From positions 248,001 to 312,000 of the forward strand of contig NZ_JAIRBB010000001.1 in assembly GCF_022008395.1 (NCBI RefSeq): a stretch of 64,000 nucleotides of DNA. Reading direction: 5' to 3'. The translations under genes were made by a program, and so were the position numbers. The notes beneath the pieces were generated by a model, which ran no database searches, was not told where the DNA came from, and was given only the letters and a program-made list of their open reading frames with translations. This document shows positions 32,729 through 41,230 of the stretch, one piece after another. This DNA comes from Aequorivita xiaoshiensis (lineage in GTDB: Bacteria; Bacteroidota; Bacteroidia; Flavobacteriales; Flavobacteriaceae). Within the stretch, counting starts at the first letter, position 1; each line of letters begins with the position of its first letter.

Positions 32729-35110
32729 TTATTGAAGTGTTTTAATTTGGATCCCCTCTTTCAACTCATTTCCTTCACTATCCACAACTGTTAGAATATA
32801 ATTTCCTGGTTTTGGGGAAATAGCCAACTCGTGAAACGTTTCCGTTTTCCCGATATATTCTGAATCTAAATACCAATAAACTATATTTTCTGATGATCGG
32901 TGCGCAAGCTTAAAAATTACTTCGTTCACATTTTCATCAAAATTCTTCGGAAGCAACACTGTTTCATTTTTCTTTGGATATATAAAAGCCATCAACTTTT
33001 CACCATCCTGTCTACAATTAGGCGCAAAAGGTGGCAAAGGATGATATTCTGGATGAAGAGACGCGTAAAAATGTTCCATAACCGGCGGTAGCACAAACCA
33101 ATTCTTTTGAACCATTTCTGAAAGGGAATAACACGAAGAATTAACCCGATAATTTTTCGAAGCATTTAAAAATACGGTTTGATGGTACGGACAAGTTTCG
33201 GTTCTTGCACCGTTTGTTGGAATCCATTCCGTTATTATTTCGTCGCAAAAAAGTCCAGCGAGATGACCGCTTTTTGCACAAATCTCAACCTCAACTAATT
33301 CATCATACGGAATATTAAACCATCCGCTTTGTGGCAAAACATTCAAAACATCAAACAAAATGGGAGCTGCAGCTTGAATTCCAGTTAAACCCGGTCGTCC
33401 TTCGCCATCGGCATTTCCAACCCAAATGCCTATTGCGTATTTTGGCGTAACCCCAACGGCCCACGCGTCTTTAAAGCCGTAACTGGTTCCTGTTTTCCAC
33501 GCAAGTGGTTGACTGCTTGTAAAAAACTCCCAATTTTCTTCACCGCTCGGACGGTTCACCTTTTGCATTGCACCGAAGGTTTCATAAATTGCTCCCGCAT
33601 TCCAAACCGAAGGATTTTGCTGAATTTTTCCGAAGTCGATTTCCTCGTGATTTTTCACATAAACGGGTTCCACAAATTCATTTTTTCGGTATTCGCTGGA
33701 AGAAGTGTTGAAGAAATTTAAAGTTGAAGCCATCCCCGCATACGCTTTTGTAATATCCCATAAGCTGCTTTCCGCGCCGCCCAAAATCATAGACAAACCA
33801 TAATAATCTGCAGGTTTATCGACTGACTTTTGATTCATTTTTCCAAGAATATTATAGAACCGCTGTAAACCGAAATCGCGTAACATCCGCACCGCTGGAA
33901 TATTTAGCGAACGAGAAAGAGCAACGCTAGCGGGCACGGCGCCGTTAAATTGCTTGTCAAAATTTTCAGGTGTATATCCATTCACTGAAGTAGGAACATC
34001 AGCCACCAAAGTATTCGGAAGAATCTCCCCAGCATCTAGCATTGAAGCAAAAAGAAAAGGCTTTAGAATACTCCCCGTGCTTCGCGGTTTTTCAATAACA
34101 TCTACATAGTTATTGTGTTCTTTCGTTGTAGGTGAATTCCCCACATACCCCAAAACTTCGCGTGTATTTACATCCATCACCAAGACCGAAATATTGTGAA
34201 TTTGATTCTGACTCAACAAAAAATGGTGCTCTTTCACAATATTATTTAGCTTTTGTTGAAGTGAAAAATCAATGGTTGTTTCAATGCGTTTTCCTGGATG
34301 CTCTTTTCGAATTTTTTCAGTTAAATGAGGTGCATATTCCGGCAAAGACAACGGTTTTCCGGGTAGGTTTTCATCCAAAGCCAATTGATACGTGGTTTCA
34401 TCAATCACTCCATTTTTGAAAAGTTTCAATAATAAAGCATCTCTTTTCTTCTTTAAAATTTCTTCGTTTTTCCCGGGAAAAATAAGTGAGGGCGCATTTG
34501 GAAGTACCGCTAAAGCAGCAGATTGCCCCCAACTCAATTCGCTCGCAGGAATCCCGAAATAGCGCCAGGACGCAGTTTCCAATCCAACCACATTTCCGCC
34601 GAAAGGCGCGTACGAAGCATATAAATTCAAAATTGATTTTTTCTTAAAACCTGCTTCCAAACGCGTGGCTTGAAAAATTTCAATTAATTTTTCAAAATAA
34701 GTTCTTTCTGTATTTTGTCGGGAAAGACGGATAACTTGTTGGGTAATTGTACTCCCGCCGCGACGGGAATCGGTAGTAAGATTATTCCAAAGTGCTTTTG
34801 AAATTGAAACCGGATTAAAGCCGGGATGCCAATAAAAATGCTCATCTTCAAAGTAGAGAATACATTTTTCAAACCGTTCCGGCACCGAATCCATTTGTGG
34901 AAATCGCCATTGGCCATCGTCTGCAATTCGTGCGCCCAGCATTTGCCCGCTGCTGCTTTCGGCTACGGTTGCGGTGGGAACCTCAAATAATGGCGAGGGA
35001 AGGCAGAAGAGCCAAACCACGAATAAAACTAGCGCGATACTGAGTTTTATTTTGTGAGTTTTAAAATGCTTTTTTAAAGTTGTTCTTTTCAATTTAACTC
35101 CTAAAATCAA
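32729..35110 (-). CDS. pbpC: penicillin-binding protein 1C
   Basis: Bifunctional peptidoglycan synthase-like protein of 793 residues, anchored by one N-terminal helix (about 22-40). The glycosyltransferase 51 domain (about 60-240) has FEDEHFYWHPGFNPVSISKALW with the catalytic Glu and GGSTITQQVIRL. The transpeptidase domain has SILKP (the SxxK motif, about residue 350) and the KTGTS motif (AWKTGTSYGFKDAW). The C-terminal penicillin-binding domain typical of PBP1C is present (about 690-793). PBP1C usually partners the alpha-2-macroglobulin encoded upstream, a pair proposed to repair or defend a breached envelope. Confidence 0.96.
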   Translation of the reverse strand: MILGVKLKRTTLKKHFKTHKIKLSIALVLFVVWLFCLPSPLFEVPTATVAESSSGQMLGARIADDGQWRFPQMDSVPERFEKCILYFEDEHFYWHPGFNPVSISKALWNNLTTDSRRGGSTITQQVIRLSRQNTERTYFEKLIEIFQATRLEAGFKKKSILNLYASYAPFGGNVVGLETASWRYFGIPASELSWGQSAALAVLPNAPSLIFPGKNEEILKKKRDALLLKLFKNGVIDETTYQLALDENLPGKPLSLPEYAPHLTEKIRKEHPGKRIETTIDFSLQQKLNNIVKEHHFLLSQNQIHNISVLVMDVNTREVLGYVGNSPTTKEHNNYVDVIEKPRSTGSILKPFLFASMLDAGEILPNTLVADVPTSVNGYTPENFDKQFNGAVPASVALSRSLNIPAVRMLRDFGLQRFYNILGKMNQKSVDKPADYYGLSMILGGAESSLWDITKAYAGMASTLNFFNTSSSEYRKNEFVEPVYVKNHEEIDFGKIQQNPSVWNAGAIYETFGAMQKVNRPSGEENWEFFTSSQPLAWKTGTSYGFKDAWAVGVTPKYAIGIWVGNADGEGRPGLTGIQAAAPILFDVLNVLPQSGWFNIPYDELVEVEICAKSGHLAGLFCDEIITEWIPTNGARTETCPYHQTVFLNASKNYRVNSSCYSLSEMVQKNWFVLPPVMEHFYASLHPEYHPLPPFAPNCRQDGEKLMAFIYPKKNETVLLPKNFDENVNEVIFKLAHRSSENIVYWYLDSEYIGKTETFHELAISPKPGNYILTVVDSEGNELKEGIQIKTLQ

Positions 35111-35122
35111 TTATGTAGACTA

Positions 35123-35182
35123 ATGTCAGTCTGAGCTTGTCGAAGACCCGTGTGTTGCGCTTCGACAAGCTCAGCGTGACAT
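35123..35182. repeat. 60-bp palindromic hairpin element (gene-less unit)
   Basis: Arms at 35123-35145 and 35160-35182 are 23 bp long and match at 21 positions as inverted repeats; the loop is 14 bp. The arm core is CTGAGCTTGTCGAAG. The arms share design and both mismatch positions with the terminal repeats of the neighbouring GIY-YIG unit, but differ at one core base (CTTGTCG here, CCTGTCG there). Confidence 0.85.
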
Positions 35183-35212
35183 TTATATTTCAATTTATCA
35201 TAAGGTTTTCGA

Positions 35213-35597
35213 GTGTCAGTCTGAGCCTGTCGAAGACGGGTTTCTCTTATCAGGATGCCCATATTCAGTATAATTTTTTGAAAATTCTATTAAATCTTGC
35301 CAATTCTCTTCAATCAATGCAGTTTTCTTTCTTCGTGACCAACCTTTTATCTGTTTTTCAACCTTTATTGCTTCCGTTGAATTTGTACATTGTAAGTGCC
35401 ATTTTAGCACTACTGGTCTCCTTTTAAAAGTATAGCAATCTTTTTTTATTCCTTCATTATGCTGCACAAGTCTGCGTTCTAAATCATTTGTCATTCCTGT
35501 GTAATAGGAATTATCAGAGCATTGAAGGATATATGTGAAATAGAATTTCATATATTTTAATTAATCATAAAACGCTTCGACAGGCTCAGCATGACAC
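35213..35597. mobile_element. putative GIY-YIG palindromic mobile unit with terminal inverted repeats
   Basis: A 385-bp unit bounded by 23-bp inverted repeats at 35213-35235 and 35575-35597 (core CTGAGCCTGTCGAAG, 21 of 23 positions matching). It encloses one gene, a GIY-YIG nuclease on the minus strand, whose last codons and stop are inside the left repeat. No target-site duplication is obvious. It is placed between alpha-2-macroglobulin and pbpC. Mobility is inferred from structure only. Confidence 0.6.
35216..35551 (-). CDS. GIY-YIG nuclease family protein
   Basis: Small single-domain endonuclease of 111 residues, of the UvrC/UPF0213 type. The GIY-equivalent is TYI (residues 6-8) and the YIG-equivalent is YTG (17-19). 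Catalytic Arg is in DLERRL (26 or 27), His31 is conserved, and the metal-binding Glu is probably Glu65 in VEKQIKGWSRRKK. The active site therefore looks intact. The final residues SSTGSD and the TGA come from the terminal inverted repeat. Its ATG lies 24 bp from the other repeat. Such proteins act as DNA-nicking or cleaving enzymes; the specific role here is unknown. Confidence 0.88.
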   Translation of the reverse strand: MKFYFTYILQCSDNSYYTGMTNDLERRLVQHNEGIKKDCYTFKRRPVVLKWHLQCTNSTEAIKVEKQIKGWSRRKKTALIEENWQDLIEFSKNYTEYGHPDKRNPSSTGSD

Positions 35598-35626
35598 GGT
35601 TATTTTTCATTGGCATTTAGAAAAAA

Positions 35627-38600
35627 TCACAATTCAATCGTCACCCACATCCCTTTGTTCCTCGCATAATAAGAATTGTCATACATAGCCTCAACCTGTG
35701 TTCCCGGCAAATAATACGTTCCTAAATAGGACGCATTTAGCTTCACGGTGAACGTCTTCGTTTGATTGCTATTTAAATCAAAGAAAAAATTCACGCGGTC
35801 GTCGCGAATGTCTGTGTATCGTGCGTTTCCAGTTGCGCCACCGCCCAATTCTGAAAAACTAGTGTTTACAACTTCCCAACCGCTTGGGAAGATTTTCGCC
35901 AAAGCCACATTGTTTATCCAATCTCCCGAAGTATTGGTAACACTTACTTTGGCAATTATTTCGGTTCCTTGTCGCAATTTTGTCACGTCGATTGCTTTTC
36001 CATCACCTCCCAAATATTCAGATTTTATGGAGAGATTACGTCTTTCGGCAAGTTCTTTTCCTAGTGGAAGCTTTCCTCGTTGCGAAAGCGTAACGTAAAC
36101 AATATTCCCTTTTTTATTGGTTACTGAAACTGAATTACTTCCCATCACAAACGACAGATCTCGCTGCGCAATGGCGCGGTCGGTTTTAACCTCAACCGAT
36201 TTTCCGCCATTTGTAAATGTGAGTTCCATCGCTTTACCGCCATTCTTTTCAACCATTTTCGCCATCGTCATCAAGGCATACGAAGTTTCCTGTGTGCTGT
36301 ACCAATTTCTGGATGAGAGATCTTTCGCTACTGAAATTGCCAATTCACGTTGTTTCGGATCGCCTAATAAAACCATAGTTTCCAAAGCCATTACGCGATT
36401 TCTGAACGGAGATCCGTACGTATAATTGTCAGATTTTTGAGGAACAAAATTAATATTTGACGTTTGTGCAATTTGCTCTGCAACGTTTTTCTTTCCAGCC
36501 AAAGCATAAGCTGCAGCCAGTCGCCATTTTGCATCATTGCTCAATTCTTTGCTTTCGCGAAGTCTATTCATTGCTGCCAATTCTGGTTTTCCGGCCAATG
36601 CCAAAGTGTAAAGTCTGTAAGCCTGCGTTAAACTTGAATTGTACACCGCATAACTATTTCGCCATTGGCGCGCCATGTTTTGTTGGTACAGCAACCAATT
36701 GCTCATAAAGCTTATGGGCAAAGCGTAGCCTTTTTGCTTCGCTTCAAGCATAAAATGCCCCGCATAAGTTGTGCTCCACTCATCTGCTTCGCGCTCGCCG
36801 GGCCAATATGAAAGTCCGCCGTTAGAAAGTTGAAATCTACCCAAACGCGCAATAGTTGCTTTTACATTTTTTTCAATTACTTGCTTTTTGTCGAAAGTAA
36901 TATCGAAAACATCTGCTAAATACAGCTGCGGAAATGCAGAAGAAGTACTCTGTTCCAAACATCCGTAGGGATAGTTGATTAAAAACTCCAGACGTTTGCC
37001 GAAATCCATCGGTGGCAATGTTGAAAATTCAAGCGTCGCAGCATTGCTTCCGGGCACGCCGAAAGTTTCAAAATTTATAGTTTGTGAGCCATTTTCAGCT
37101 ATAGTGAATTGCGTAGATTTTTGCGAAATCGGGTTTGGGTTCTCCACATCAATTTCAACTTTGTAGCTCGCTTTTTCACCGTTGCCCGAAGCGGTTACTT
37201 CTATAGTTTGAACCGCATCTGTCATGTTGAGCGAAGTCGAAACATCGAATTCAAAATTCACAATTTGTTCGCCCGGTTCGTTGAAAGTAATAGTTTTTGA
37301 AGCCCCATTTTTCGGTTTCAAAGCATCACCGGTTTTTACTGTAATCGTGGCGGTTTTCACTTTATTTTCCATTGCGAAAACGGTAACTGGCAGCACAACT
37401 GTTTCGCCCGGGGATAATTTCCGCGGAAGCGAAGCCAGCACCATTAAAGGCGTACGGACGGGTGTGGTTTTTTCAGCATTGCCGTAAGCGCTTTTGGTTT
37501 TATCGCCCGCAATTACCATTGTACGCACCGAACCTACATAATTTGGCATCATTATATTGTGCGATGCGGCTTTGCCAGCGGCAAGTTCAAACGGGCCGAG
37601 GTATTTTACAACGGGTTTGAATCTGTCGGCTTTTCTATTTTTTGCACCCAAAGCCGCATCGCCACCACCGATTGCGTAAATATTATCCACACTGCCCGAA
37701 TAGGCGCCAATTACGTAATCGAACATATCAAAAGTTTTCACTCCCAAAGCTTCGCGACTGTAAAAACTTTCGTGAATATTGGGGGTTGCAAATCGTGTTA
37801 AATCCAGCAAACCTTCGTCAACAACAGCCAAAGTATAAGTCATAGATTTGCCTTTTTCTTCTGAAACTTCTACGGTGAAATTTTCTTCAGGTTTCAGCAC
37901 ATTCGGCATCGTGATTTTTGGTTGTAAAACGGTTGAAGGGTCTTCCACCAATAGCGGAATAACACCGTAAAGTCTCATCGGCAAATCATTCTTAGTTTGA
38001 TTGTGTGGCTGCAGCAGCGAAATATTCACATAAATATTCGGCGCCATTTCCTTCGTGATTTTTATCGCGGCTTTGGTTTCGCCCTTTTTGGTTTCAATCC
38101 AATGCGTCGCCAAAACTTCGGTGCCATTTTCCACACTAATTAAGGCGCGACCGTCGCTACCGGAAGGGAAAGTTATAAAAGCTTCTTCACCTACATTATA
38201 CTTATCTTTATCTGCTGAAAAGACTAACATTTTCGCACTTTCGGCATCGCCATCACTTGGGCGTTGTGACCAATTTCTGTAGAAATAAGTGATGCGTCCC
38301 GTTGCGTGGCCAGATTGTTTATCGATTACGCGAATTAAATAACGTCCGCCTTCCTCTTCGGGAATATTTACAGTGAATTTTCCCTTGCCGCTGCCATCAG
38401 TTTTTAGGGTGAAATCTTTTACGGGTCTGTGAACAGTTGAATTTTCATATGTTGAAAGATTGTCTCTTCCACGGTTCCACCACCAACGCCATTCAATTTG
38501 AAAAACTTTTACTTGCAACTCCCGATTAGCCGTAGCTTGTCCTTTAGTATCTACGGAAACCACATCAAAAGTTGTGTTTTCATCTGTAAAATAAGAGCCG

Positions 38601-41230
38601 TAGCGACCGGCTTCGGGAGATTTCAAACCTACAAAATGAGAGAACGGAGCCAAATCTTTAGAAAAAATATCCATTGAAAAATCACCACCGCCTTCGTAGA
38701 CTTTCGTTAAAAATGTAGCTTTCAACATTCCCGGTGCGTTTTTTCCAACTTCCATCTTTTGGCTAAAAGAAATAGCACCTTCCGAAGAAAGTTGCCCATC
38801 CAAAACTGGGATTTCAACCTCATCAAAACTGCGGATTGGGTCCGTAAAATTATATTTAGGAAACTTAGGGAAAGCTGTATTGCTAGCGCGAAGTGTGGCA
38901 GTCATATCAATTTTTAAATTTCGCGCAGGCGAGCCGTGAAGCCACATGGCGCTTGCCATTCCTTTTACGGGTTTTGTTGCATCGAGAATTTCATCGTCAT
39001 AATCGAGTTTGATTTTTAAACGGTTTGGTTTAATGGTTGCAACTTTTAACGTATTACTAAACTGTGCGCCACCAACGGTTATAGTTGCGTTCCAGTTTCC
39101 AGTTGGTGCCGAAGGATCTGTGGCGATTGGGAAATAATAAAAACTCTCCAGCCCCCTAGCCCCCGAAGGGGGGACCCTTGTTGTGGAATTGGATGTGTTT
39201 AATACGCTTCGCTGAACCAATTTACCCCGAGCGTCTGTTACAGAAATTGTTACGGGATGGTTTTTTGGAAGTGGATTTGCGTTGTCGTTCAGCACAAAAG
39301 TTAAGTGAATACTGTCTCCGGGGCGGTACACGCCACGTTCGGTAAACGTGTAACCTTTTAAACCTTTTTGAAGTTCTTTTCCCGAAATATCAAAATTGCT
39401 CATGGAAAGGGCATTTCCATCTTCGAGTTTTACGTAGGCAAAATTGTTTCCTTTTTGTGCGACTGCGAAAGCTGCATTTTTAGTGCCGTCGTAAAGCGTT
39501 ATTCCGTCGGCTTCGGTAGTAAGCGTTTCAATGAGTTGCTGCTGATAGTTGAAAAGTTTAATTTTTACACCACCTTCGGGCTTTGCAGAAATTAGGTTTG
39601 TAGTAATAAAATGATAGGAGCGATTGTTGCCTTTTTTCACAATTAAGCCTAAATCTGAACCCAAAATATTTGCCGTCACTACGCGATCTTCGTTGTAATA
39701 AGCGGCATGACACGGATTGTCCTGCTGTTGCCAATTATAGGTGAAATTTCGCCAGCGGTAAATTTGGTTATCCCAATATCGCTCTTCGCGAATATCTTCA
39801 TCTTCAGAGGGGTCGAATGCATAATATGGATCTTCTTCGTAGTTTTCGTTACTATCTTCTTCACTTGCTGTAGTCTCGGCGCAATCATAAATGATATAAT
39901 CTTTTTTGAAACTGATTTCCACTTGATAAATGGCACCGGGATCTGTCTTAAAATATTCAGAAAGATTAATTGCGTAAGCTTTCCAGCTTCCATTACTTGA
40001 CAAGTCATCATTTTTTAAATCGATGGTTTTTTTGGCAATTCGTCTACCAATTCGTCGAATATCGTACGTATTAATGTCGTTCAAATTATAACTTTGAAGA
40101 AATTGCAGCACGTTGTTTTCGTAAATTTTAATAACTCGAACATCTACTTTTGAAAGGTTTACCGCTTCAAAATAAACGGGCGTAGAAGCAGAATTCGGAA
40201 GAATAACCCCTTTTGAAAGCATTCGCACTGCAGGTTTTAACTGTTCAAAAGAAACCAATTCTGAAAATTCTTTCTTTAAACCGAAGCCTTCCGTGTTTTT
40301 AATTCCCGTGAAAACGGTGACTTTTACGTTGCCCACAACGCGGTTTGGCGGGTAAACGTTCAACACATTTCCGTTTACTTCGTAACGCAGATCTGCTGTG
40401 TTTTCGATAGTAACCAGGCCAGCGAAATCCTGATTTTCCATTAAGGGATCTGAAAAGTTGATGCTCAACAACGCAGCTGGTGCCAATGTGCTACTAATAT
40501 CAACGATTGTAAAGTTATTTTGCCCCGGAATTGCAAACTTGTTTTCACCTTTATTTTCGGCACCGATGGGCTTTCCGTCCCACTTTATTAGGATTTCAGA
40601 ATCGTTCATTTCACGGCTAATACTATCGATTGTAAAACTGAAATAACGAGCTTCTGTTGTTTCTGCCGGCCATTTCAAATTTAGCTTTTTGCCTTCCTGT
40701 GAAGCTGAAACCAATTGCTTGGCTTTTTCTAAAGAAATTACATCTGAGGCTTCCACAGATGCTTCAACGTATTGCCATTGTTTGTCATAACTTTGAAGGT
40801 TGCCGATGTCAACTTTAAAATTTGGCGTGATTGTATGAAAACTGAAGGTATATGTTTTGAAGTCTTTAGCAATGTCTTCGTATAACTTATTCAGCTTTAC
40901 CGTTACAGTGTATTCGGTGTCTGGTTTTAAGTATTCTGAAGGTTGAAATATTAGGGTTTTGCCGTTTTCAACTACCAATTTCCCTTTTGTTTTTGGAGAA
41001 ATACTTAAGTAATCATCAGCAGAAAGTTGCTGTGTCATCTCAAACTGCTCCAATGATTTCGTAAGCTCAACGCGAATATCAGTTGTAACAGATTGATTTC
41101 CGTAAGTGTTATAGGAAATATATTCCTTGAATTTGAAGAGGTTGTCTGTTTCGGCGTATTTGTTCTTGTCTTTACAGGAAAAAACGAGAAGAATCAAAAC
41201 GATGGAAAAAACCTTGAGTGAAATTTTCAT
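35627..41230 (-). CDS. alpha-2-macroglobulin family lipoprotein with thioester motif
   Basis: Large envelope protein of 1867 residues, the bacterial counterpart of the host protease-trapping inhibitor. A lipoprotein signal ends in LLVFSC (Cys19). Several MG-type beta domains follow, including a macroglobulin signature GVYRPGDSIHLTFVLND (about 685-701). The A2M domain and the thioester CLEQ lie near residue 1423 (YPYGCLEQSTSSAFP), followed by the alpha-helical thioester domain and a C-terminal MG domain. The thioester implies covalent trapping of attacking proteases. The DNA holds an in-frame palindromic repeat at 39150-39182 and a repeat-like half arm at 37221-37246. The gene seems richer in G+C than its neighbours by eye. 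Confidence 0.93.
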   Translation of the reverse strand: MKISLKVFSIVLILLVFSCKDKNKYAETDNLFKFKEYISYNTYGNQSVTTDIRVELTKSLEQFEMTQQLSADDYLSISPKTKGKLVVENGKTLIFQPSEYLKPDTEYTVTVKLNKLYEDIAKDFKTYTFSFHTITPNFKVDIGNLQSYDKQWQYVEASVEASDVISLEKAKQLVSASQEGKKLNLKWPAETTEARYFSFTIDSISREMNDSEILIKWDGKPIGAENKGENKFAIPGQNNFTIVDISSTLAPAALLSINFSDPLMENQDFAGLVTIENTADLRYEVNGNVLNVYPPNRVVGNVKVTVFTGIKNTEGFGLKKEFSELVSFEQLKPAVRMLSKGVILPNSASTPVYFEAVNLSKVDVRVIKIYENNVLQFLQSYNLNDINTYDIRRIGRRIAKKTIDLKNDDLSSNGSWKAYAINLSEYFKTDPGAIYQVEISFKKDYIIYDCAETTASEEDSNENYEEDPYYAFDPSEDEDIREERYWDNQIYRWRNFTYNWQQQDNPCHAAYYNEDRVVTANILGSDLGLIVKKGNNRSYHFITTNLISAKPEGGVKIKLFNYQQQLIETLTTEADGITLYDGTKNAAFAVAQKGNNFAYVKLEDGNALSMSNFDISGKELQKGLKGYTFTERGVYRPGDSIHLTFVLNDNANPLPKNHPVTISVTDARGKLVQRSVLNTSNSTTRVPPSGARGLESFYYFPIATDPSAPTGNWNATITVGGAQFSNTLKVATIKPNRLKIKLDYDDEILDATKPVKGMASAMWLHGSPARNLKIDMTATLRASNTAFPKFPKYNFTDPIRSFDEVEIPVLDGQLSSEGAISFSQKMEVGKNAPGMLKATFLTKVYEGGGDFSMDIFSKDLAPFSHFVGLKSPEAGRYGSYFTDENTTFDVVSVDTKGQATANRELQVKVFQIEWRWWWNRGRDNLSTYENSTVHRPVKDFTLKTDGSGKGKFTVNIPEEEGGRYLIRVIDKQSGHATGRITYFYRNWSQRPSDGDAESAKMLVFSADKDKYNVGEEAFITFPSGSDGRALISVENGTEVLATHWIETKKGETKAAIKITKEMAPNIYVNISLLQPHNQTKNDLPMRLYGVIPLLVEDPSTVLQPKITMPNVLKPEENFTVEVSEEKGKSMTYTLAVVDEGLLDLTRFATPNIHESFYSREALGVKTFDMFDYVIGAYSGSVDNIYAIGGGDAALGAKNRKADRFKPVVKYLGPFELAAGKAASHNIMMPNYVGSVRTMVIAGDKTKSAYGNAEKTTPVRTPLMVLASLPRKLSPGETVVLPVTVFAMENKVKTATITVKTGDALKPKNGASKTITFNEPGEQIVNFEFDVSTSLNMTDAVQTIEVTASGNGEKASYKVEIDVENPNPISQKSTQFTIAENGSQTINFETFGVPGSNAATLEFSTLPPMDFGKRLEFLINYPYGCLEQSTSSAFPQLYLADVFDITFDKKQVIEKNVKATIARLGRFQLSNGGLSYWPGEREADEWSTTYAGHFMLEAKQKGYALPISFMSNWLLYQQNMARQWRNSYAVYNSSLTQAYRLYTLALAGKPELAAMNRLRESKELSNDAKWRLAAAYALAGKKNVAEQIAQTSNINFVPQKSDNYTYGSPFRNRVMALETMVLLGDPKQRELAISVAKDLSSRNWYSTQETSYALMTMAKMVEKNGGKAMELTFTNGGKSVEVKTDRAIAQRDLSFVMGSNSVSVTNKKGNIVYVTLSQRGKLPLGKELAERRNLSIKSEYLGGDGKAIDVTKLRQGTEIIAKVSVTNTSGDWINNVALAKIFPSGWEVVNTSFSELGGGATGNARYTDIRDDRVNFFFDLNSNQTKTFTVKLNASYLGTYYLPGTQVEAMYDNSYYARNKGMWVTIEL
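37221..37246. repeat. repeat-like half arm inside the alpha-2-macroglobulin gene
   Basis: The plus strand reads TGTCATGTTGAGCGAAGTCG and then AAACAT, the form of one arm of the GTTTCGACT..GCTC-type intergenic repeats. It is translated in frame as VSTSLNMTD. No second arm is adjacent, so this may be an eroded insertion or coincidence. Confidence 0.4.
39150..39182. repeat. palindromic CCCCCGAAGGGGG repeat inserted in frame in the alpha-2-macroglobulin gene
   Basis: The stretch contains AGCCCCCTAGCCCCCGAAGG followed by GGGG, a repeat type that I recognise from flavobacterial intergenic regions. Read on the minus strand it adds roughly RVPPSGARGLES between RSVLNTSNSTT and FYYFPIATD without breaking the frame. 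Confidence 0.7.

Follow-up and report, generated by a model that had tools for sequence, protein, structure and literature searches.

Among the described systems closest to the locus analysed here, freestanding GIY-YIG homing endonucleases are represented by the Seg type of phages. REP palindromes with a CGTC, TGTC or CCTC tag, arranged in head-to-head pairs, are described from Alphaproteobacteria, Bacteroidetes and Neisseriae and were assigned to five phyla, apparently without a dedicated transposase, by Di Nocera et al. 2013 (PMC3733652). The role of the small COG2827 nucleases in Caulobacter is called unknown in PMC1839093. A link between GIY-YIG nucleases and REPs was not found in the literature searched (one open-access library); the papers checked that contain both sets of terms use them in separate, unrelated contexts.

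The window, by which we mean the whole 64-kb stretch of DNA analysed, joins the two in an interval of 516 bp (positions 35111 to 35626). The interval is bounded by two ORFs on the minus strand, one at 32729 to 35110 that is presumably a penicillin-binding-protein-1C-like gene (pbpC) and one at 35627 to 41230 that we take to encode an alpha-2-macroglobulin/MG2-like lipoprotein (MG2). Within it, a GIY-YIG nuclease gene of 111 amino acids (35216 to 35551, minus strand; ORF and Pfam match) is enclosed by inverted REPs of 23 nt that are complementary at 21 of 23 positions (91%), namely TGTCAGTCTGAGCCTGTCGAAG downstream (35213 to 35235, plus strand) and TGTCATGCTGAGCCTGTCGAAG, as read on the minus strand, upstream (35575 to 35597, minus strand). 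The TGTC tag of each REP is directed outward, away from the gene. A preliminary description of 23-bp inverted repeats bounding one GIY-YIG ORF was confirmed by repeat search and Pfam, as was its remark that the downstream repeat encodes the residues SSTGSD and the TGA stop, the last codons of the gene falling within 35213 to 35235. At a distance of 29 bp from the gene-bearing pair, the same repeat forms a further pair without a gene (REPIN-like; repeat search), which was absent from the preliminary description; its arms at 35122 to 35145 (plus strand) and 35160 to 35183 (minus strand) are 92% complementary and separated by a 14-nt loop. The locus thus comprises two REP pairs in a small array, and the gene occupies the loop of one of them. 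The repeat core CTGAGCNTGTCGAAG occurs four times in the 64 kb when up to two mismatches are allowed (0.18 occurrences expected), and all four copies are exact and lie at the GIY-YIG locus. The 3.06-Mb genome from which the window comes has five exact copies, four of them at this locus, and no copy of a reversed control pattern; the clustering of the core is not due to chance. Assignment of the locus to a known RNA family was rejected, since the only two Rfam matches, both to AaHKsRNA41, scored 32 and 25 bits and thus fell below the cut-off of 97. The same genome carries three small GIY-YIG genes, one truncated by a contig end, and the third copy has a different flanking pair, CCTCGGCTCCGCTCGG.

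The window protein matches Pfam PF01541 (E = 5e-18, profile positions 2 to 76 of 78), which is the sole Pfam domain detected in its 111 residues; neither a separate DNA-binding module nor the Y1 transposase domain PF01797 was matched in the Pfam search, and NCBIfam gave no match. Its nearest solved structures by sequence are PDB 1zg2 (E = 4e-11) and 1ywl. Residues Y7, Y17, R27, H31 and E65, which we take to be the putative catalytic residues of a GIY-YIG nuclease, are invariant in a 44-row alignment, and the protein is therefore expected, judging from its sequence, to be an active nuclease.

The repeats of the window are TGTC-tagged REP palindromes. The common Bacteroidota REP combines a TGTC tag with a stem of four bases, variable in sequence, and a GAGC-nn(n)-GTCGA core, and a tag of the CGTC superfamily (CGTC, TGTC or CCTC) stands at one end of the stem-loop in these REPs. 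Across 147 distinct REPs, 497 of 588 stem cells were Watson-Crick, far above the mean of 255 and the maximum of 287 obtained in 1,000 partner shuffles, which shows that the stems covary although their sequence is free. Under a DNA energy model, single Bacteroidota REPs form weak ssDNA hairpins, four of the five tested giving no improvement over shuffled sequences (z between -0.18 and 0.90), which was counted against a partnership of nuclease and REP. The 62-nt gene-less pair of the window locus folds as ssDNA at -22.9 kcal/mol (z = -7.95), and each of the two proteobacterial CGTC REP forms tested is a strong hairpin alone. Many proteobacterial copies have complementary A,T in stem positions 1 and 2 and a CCA tail, which most Bacteroidota copies lack. 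Tag direction around 141 homologous loci, arrays included, was outward in 106 + 109 cases and inward in 68 + 48.

The 141 loci comprise the top scorers of family and genus surveys (best 30 at most per search) and of a scan of named genomes (best 80 of at least 554 relatives). The top match in that scan was an Aequorivita MAG, after which the genus is named here; the last six residues of the query, being REP-encoded, may slightly favour REP-bearing loci in its ranking. Flanking pairs were scored as the best ungapped inverted repeat across the gene, with windows shifted within the same loci as controls, in the 135 loci that had a usable ORF and flanks (L174, L197, L210, L023, L157 and L003, with a short ORF or a missing flank, were left out). 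A score of at least 13 was reached at 90 of 135 best-scoring homologue loci and in 2 of 290 control windows, and a score of at least 15 at 65 of 135 and in 0 of 290; the outcome that the preliminary description had named as speaking for an accident, homologues without repeats being as common as those with them, is thus not what the counts give. The remaining 45 of the 135 best-scoring loci have no strong flanking pair and were counted against a partnership. Some proteins are identical between two collections (L013/L162, L014/L166, L136/L159), and clustered counts are given separately: a flanking pair was present in 55 of 87 clusters at 80% protein identity (controls, 2 of 205) and in 29 of 49 at 70% (controls, 2 of 126). 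By motif search, a TGTC-tagged REP lay within 300 bp of the gene at 103 of 141 best-scoring loci and in 4 of 300 control windows, and among arms found without any pattern (n = 90) TGTC or its complement occurred in 75 and GTAG or its complement in 1. A downstream REP was located within 300 bp at 75 of the 135 best-scoring loci; a search for nuclease stop codons inside the downstream REP, suggested earlier from the window alone, found them at 17 of the 135. The link between GIY-YIG gene and palindrome is strongly supported as real, general and wider than was first guessed.

Several of these loci stood apart. Homologues at L182, L188, L189, L207, L218 and L230 come from MAGs labelled Spirochaetales, Nitrospirae, Nitrospinaceae or Nitrospinota, and Anaerolineae, and L188, L189, L207 and L218 carry REPs of A type (one of the core types A to E used below), which may reflect inter-phylum transfer or misbinned contigs. 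At L151 and L152, a divergent GIY-YIG type adjoins TGTCATTCCGACGCAGGAGGAA palindromes, which may represent another REP class. Of the gene-bearing genus loci read, L159 (2249-2985) has the most expanded array, with about 13 REPs, many at 26-bp steps, surrounding the GIY-YIG gene.

From plasmid and phage collections, 27 of 108 listed matches were fetched, chosen by organism before their flanks were inspected. By the author's reading of the sequences, the 27 loci divide into 21 of REP type (19 proteobacterial, one Planktothrix and one Spirosoma) and six of YhbQ/YazA type, some of the loci being closely related (e.g., the Shinella and Sinorhizobium copies). Inverted pairs (score of at least 13) were present at 15 of 21 REP-type loci, all of them proteobacterial (15 of 19) and one a Neisseria locus, and at none of the six YhbQ/YazA-type loci fetched; controls of the first 24 plasmid and phage loci reached this score in 4 of 79 cases, three of which came from a REP array in L258. 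The REP-type loci without a pair (L244, L245, L252, L257, L258 and L260) include some with one-sided tagged stem-loops. Among the 15 paired loci, stem-loops tagged with CGTC, TGTC or CCTC were found by pattern in 10 and by eye in two more (L261 and L370), the remaining three (L239, L240 and L241) having other repeat forms. CGTC-tagged REPs, for example CGTCATCCTCGGGCTTGACCCGAGGATCCA, flank the GIY-YIG homologues of alphaproteobacterial replicons and have the format given by Di Nocera et al. In L370, a Neisseria gonorrhoeae record, the GIY-YIG gene sits amid CGTCATTCCCGCGCAGGCGGGAATC repeats, which we presume to resemble the dRS3 repeats of Neisseria. A phage homing gene was rejected as an identity for the nuclease, there being no PHROG match and the two phage loci read out of 24 matching records (L371 and L372) being YhbQ-like and unflanked.

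REP class follows nuclease clade, also among paralogues of one genome. A nuclease tree was built from the first 100 residues, excluding the REP-encoded ends, and loci were labelled by core type A to E with one mismatch allowed and the commonest core taken; 98 of the 141 loci enter the tree, 35 having no class or a tie and others being short or identical. On the 98-nuclease tree, REP class changes 11 times, compared with a mean of 45 for shuffled labels and 0 of 200 shuffles as low, a comparison that asks only whether labels cluster and in which some labels are debatable (L155 is labelled B, yet its flanking pair is C-type; L002 is labelled C, yet its pair reads CCTCGGCTCCGCTCGG). Counted per class, there were 6 changes for A, 6 for B, 4 for C and 3 for E, with D making up one side of a branch. 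Seven genomes of the genus have GIY-YIG copies of differing sequence type that adjoin differing REP cores: A and C in G000 (the C copy truncated by the contig end) and G167 (the C copy broken), A and D in G150 and G168, A and B in G169, and B and C in G163 and G170 (the latter labelled B on the tree). Given such paralogues within one genome, host relatedness alone is insufficient to explain the class matching.

The architecture, the class matching, the stem covariation and the alleles found at individual sites (below) are best explained by a dedicated nuclease-palindrome partnership. That nuclease and REP are functional partners appears very probable, and the DNA palindrome is likely to be the substrate of the nuclease. 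We favour, with somewhat less assurance, the view that the REP-associated GIY-YIG nuclease acts on its cognate palindromes, with its gene in the loop of a REP pair, and we lean only slightly towards the nuclease driving the spread or maintenance of the REPs. In such a partnership, a small single-domain enzyme would have as its dedicated substrate the class of (T/C)GTC-tagged palindromes that flanks its gene; the gene and two outward-tagged REPs would form one unit, and gene-less pairs would be its non-autonomous relatives. We infer hairpin recognition, nicking and movement by the nuclease along the following lines: the palindrome would be extruded as a hairpin or cruciform in replicating or transcribed DNA, the nuclease would recognise the cognate stem-loop and tag and nick at the foot, and the REP pair, alone or together with the gene, would then be copied by host repair or recombination, either to another REP or to a new site. 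GIY-YIG enzymes are known as hydrolytic nucleases and not as transposases, which was counted against mobilisation.

Individual sites were compared among congeners. A pbpC match was obtained in 25 genomes of the genus and the pbpC/MG2 junction was readable in 23, of which seven have the gene with REPs, seven have a gap of 6 to 7 bp (stop to first aligned codon), eight have 146 to 822 bp without the gene or a match to the A, B or C core, and one (G173) has two REP pairs and no gene, a 13-nt loop lying between two REPs where others hold the gene. The second outcome that had been named as pointing to an accidental link, a lack of empty sites, is likewise contradicted by the seven short gaps and the gene-less G173. 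Gene and REPs also occupy this junction in G039, which belongs to another genus. The junction is empty in G167, whose A-clade gene is located at another place and accompanied by an array of 13 REPs. The genus has the A clade at two loci, one being the pbpC junction and the other a locus of G167 whose genes we take to be S46-peptidase and KAP. No target-site duplication was apparent at the junctions read by eye, where the flanks have diverged. At a second junction, presumably between thioredoxin and clpP (trx-clpP), a C-class REP pair was followed through 27 genomes; two recognisable REPs were present in 7, one in 7 and none in 13, and the junction is shortest in G161 (152 bp vs 220). At the same trx-clpP junction (L343, L349, L352, L357 and others) a B-class REP is apparently nested in a C-class REP, which looks as if one palindrome had been inserted in the loop or stem of another.

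Site alleles of this kind also bear on intergenic homing, in which the nuclease would cut a gene-less REP pair and recombination with a gene-bearing copy would put the gene in the loop, the REPs being spread by something else or being older than the gene insertion. Homing is favoured by the alleles of G000 and G173 at one site, which differ in whether the loop of a REP pair contains the gene; the occurrence of the A clade at both the pbpC junction and the S46-peptidase/KAP locus is in keeping with it, and GIY-YIG is a homing-endonuclease fold. By itself, however, homing leaves the clade-specific, dispersed REP classes unexplained, and no separate DNA-binding domain was detected by Pfam in the window protein; we regard it as possible but doubtful.

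Movement under the partnership reading was assessed in a 400-kb comparison of two close species, G000 and G157, which are 95% identical over the approximately 378 kb aligned and have 8 and 6 REP-like matches, respectively. No REP-pair difference was found at comparable sites; one lone REP-like match in G000 has flanks that were not located in G157, and another has no REP match in G157 at equal length. There is thus no sign of recent movement between these genomes, and of the initial proposal of a palindrome-mobilising unit in which a GIY-YIG enzyme takes the place of RAYT, the architecture and the cognate pairing stand, while movement drew no support from this comparison. In the family survey, a GIY-YIG match (E of 1e-10 or better) was present in 35 of 53 genomes with an A core and in 23 of 96 without one (P = 5e-7), and 18 of the 53 genomes, counted against a partnership, have an A core without any GIY-YIG match. 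Within the genus, the A core is present in 27 of 28 genomes and the C core in all 28, and typing placed an A-clade gene in 8 genomes and a gene of C type in 7. With the copies at the gene's own locus set aside, A cores are in modest excess where the A-clade gene is present (median of 11 in 8 genomes vs 4.5 in the 20 without; P = 0.037), and C cores, locus copies included, have a median of 13 in the 7 genomes with a C-type gene and of 9 in the 21 without (P = 0.049). A counter-example for class C is G152, which has 69 exact C cores, many in tandem at steps of about 27 to 117 bp, and no evident C-type among its three GIY-YIG matches, one of them typed.

The small number of REP copies and the lack of recent insertions in G000 and G157 would also suit a host function without any mobile element. 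In that reading, REP cruciforms would be trimmed or resolved, or REP RNA processed, by a structure-selective nuclease of the chromosome that is Slx1/YhbQ-like, and the REPs on either side would regulate its gene or be an ancient substrate. YhbQ and YazA are grouped with Slx1 in PMC7017083, and of the three small COG2827 genes that Caulobacter has according to PMC1839093, one carries an SOS box. A host role is nevertheless unlikely, considering that the gene is present or absent among congeners at the same site, that its distribution is patchy (a match in 58 of 149 family genomes), that in Azospirillum lipoferum it is located between sufB and sufC, and that the YhbQ/YazA-type loci read have no REPs.

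The Y1_Tnp domain was matched in six of the 12 genomes tested, namely the window's own genome (2 matches) and five others; it had no match in the other six, five of which have between 11 and 30 exact A cores (one of the five being only 81% complete). No TGTC-type REP lay within 300 bp of any of the 14 Y1_Tnp loci fetched. Likewise, no REP was found within 3.2 kb of the three long-frame GIY-YIG loci of the window's own genome, which by their length we take to be UvrC- or Cho-like. RAYT was rejected as the carrier of the REPs on these counts (0 of 14 loci, 6 of 12 genomes), and although Y1_Tnp does occur in the window's genome and PMC6006769 describes Bacteroidetes RAYT subclass 2.6 with atypical REPs, the reading in which REPs are moved by RAYT (Y1) or act as hot spots of insertion, with the GIY-YIG gene as a chance passenger, is disfavoured and highly improbable, REP class matching the nuclease tree.

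The flanking repeats, whose type tends to match the nuclease, point to an enzyme partner that a widespread class of bacterial repeats has so far lacked. They make the GIY-YIG nuclease a candidate enzyme for the CGTC REPs, so that the open question of their enzyme becomes testable, and suggest a possible role for the common small nuclease family COG2827. Opinion is evenly balanced on the broadest reading, a second, independently evolved palindrome-mobilising class in which a hydrolytic GIY-YIG nuclease spreads TGTC/CGTC REP pairs in Bacteroidota, Alphaproteobacteria, Neisseria and others. If true, the enzyme that the CGTC REPs have lacked would be GIY-YIG, the palindromes of Neisseria, rhizobia and Bacteroidota would be one selfish-element family, and selfish systems of REP plus nuclease would have arisen at least twice with unrelated chemistry.

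Compared with known systems, the locus shares several features with the REP/RAYT arrangement (REPtron, REPIN): the palindromes are short, tagged and often in inverted pairs, other parts of the genome have pairs without a gene, inverted REPs flank a small dedicated nuclease gene, and there is cognate class matching. The enzyme there is an HUH/Y1 tyrosine nuclease and the tag is GTAG, whereas here the enzyme is a GIY-YIG protein of predicted cleavage activity and the tag is TGTC or CGTC; since both enzyme and tag depart from what defines RAYT, the locus has a REP/RAYT-like layout and is not a member. Freestanding GIY-YIG homing endonucleases resemble it in being nuclease genes inserted between other genes, but here there are palindromic flanks, several cognate repeat classes and no extra DNA-binding domain detected. 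With UPF0213/COG2827 (YhbQ, YazA; PDB 1zg2, 1ywl) the nuclease has in common a single GIY-YIG domain of about 100 amino acids and the putative catalytic residues, whereas the YhbQ/YazA-type loci examined are not flanked by inverted REPs (0 of 6). The CGTC REPs have the same tag and likewise occur in Alphaproteobacteria, Bacteroidetes and Neisseriae, and the repeats next to rhizobial genes, CGTCATCC...GGATCCA, agree with the format set out in PMC3733652; most Bacteroidota forms here differ in having a short outer stem and a GAGC..GTCGA core, and whereas that paper reports no dedicated enzyme, the repeats described here are tied to a GIY-YIG gene.
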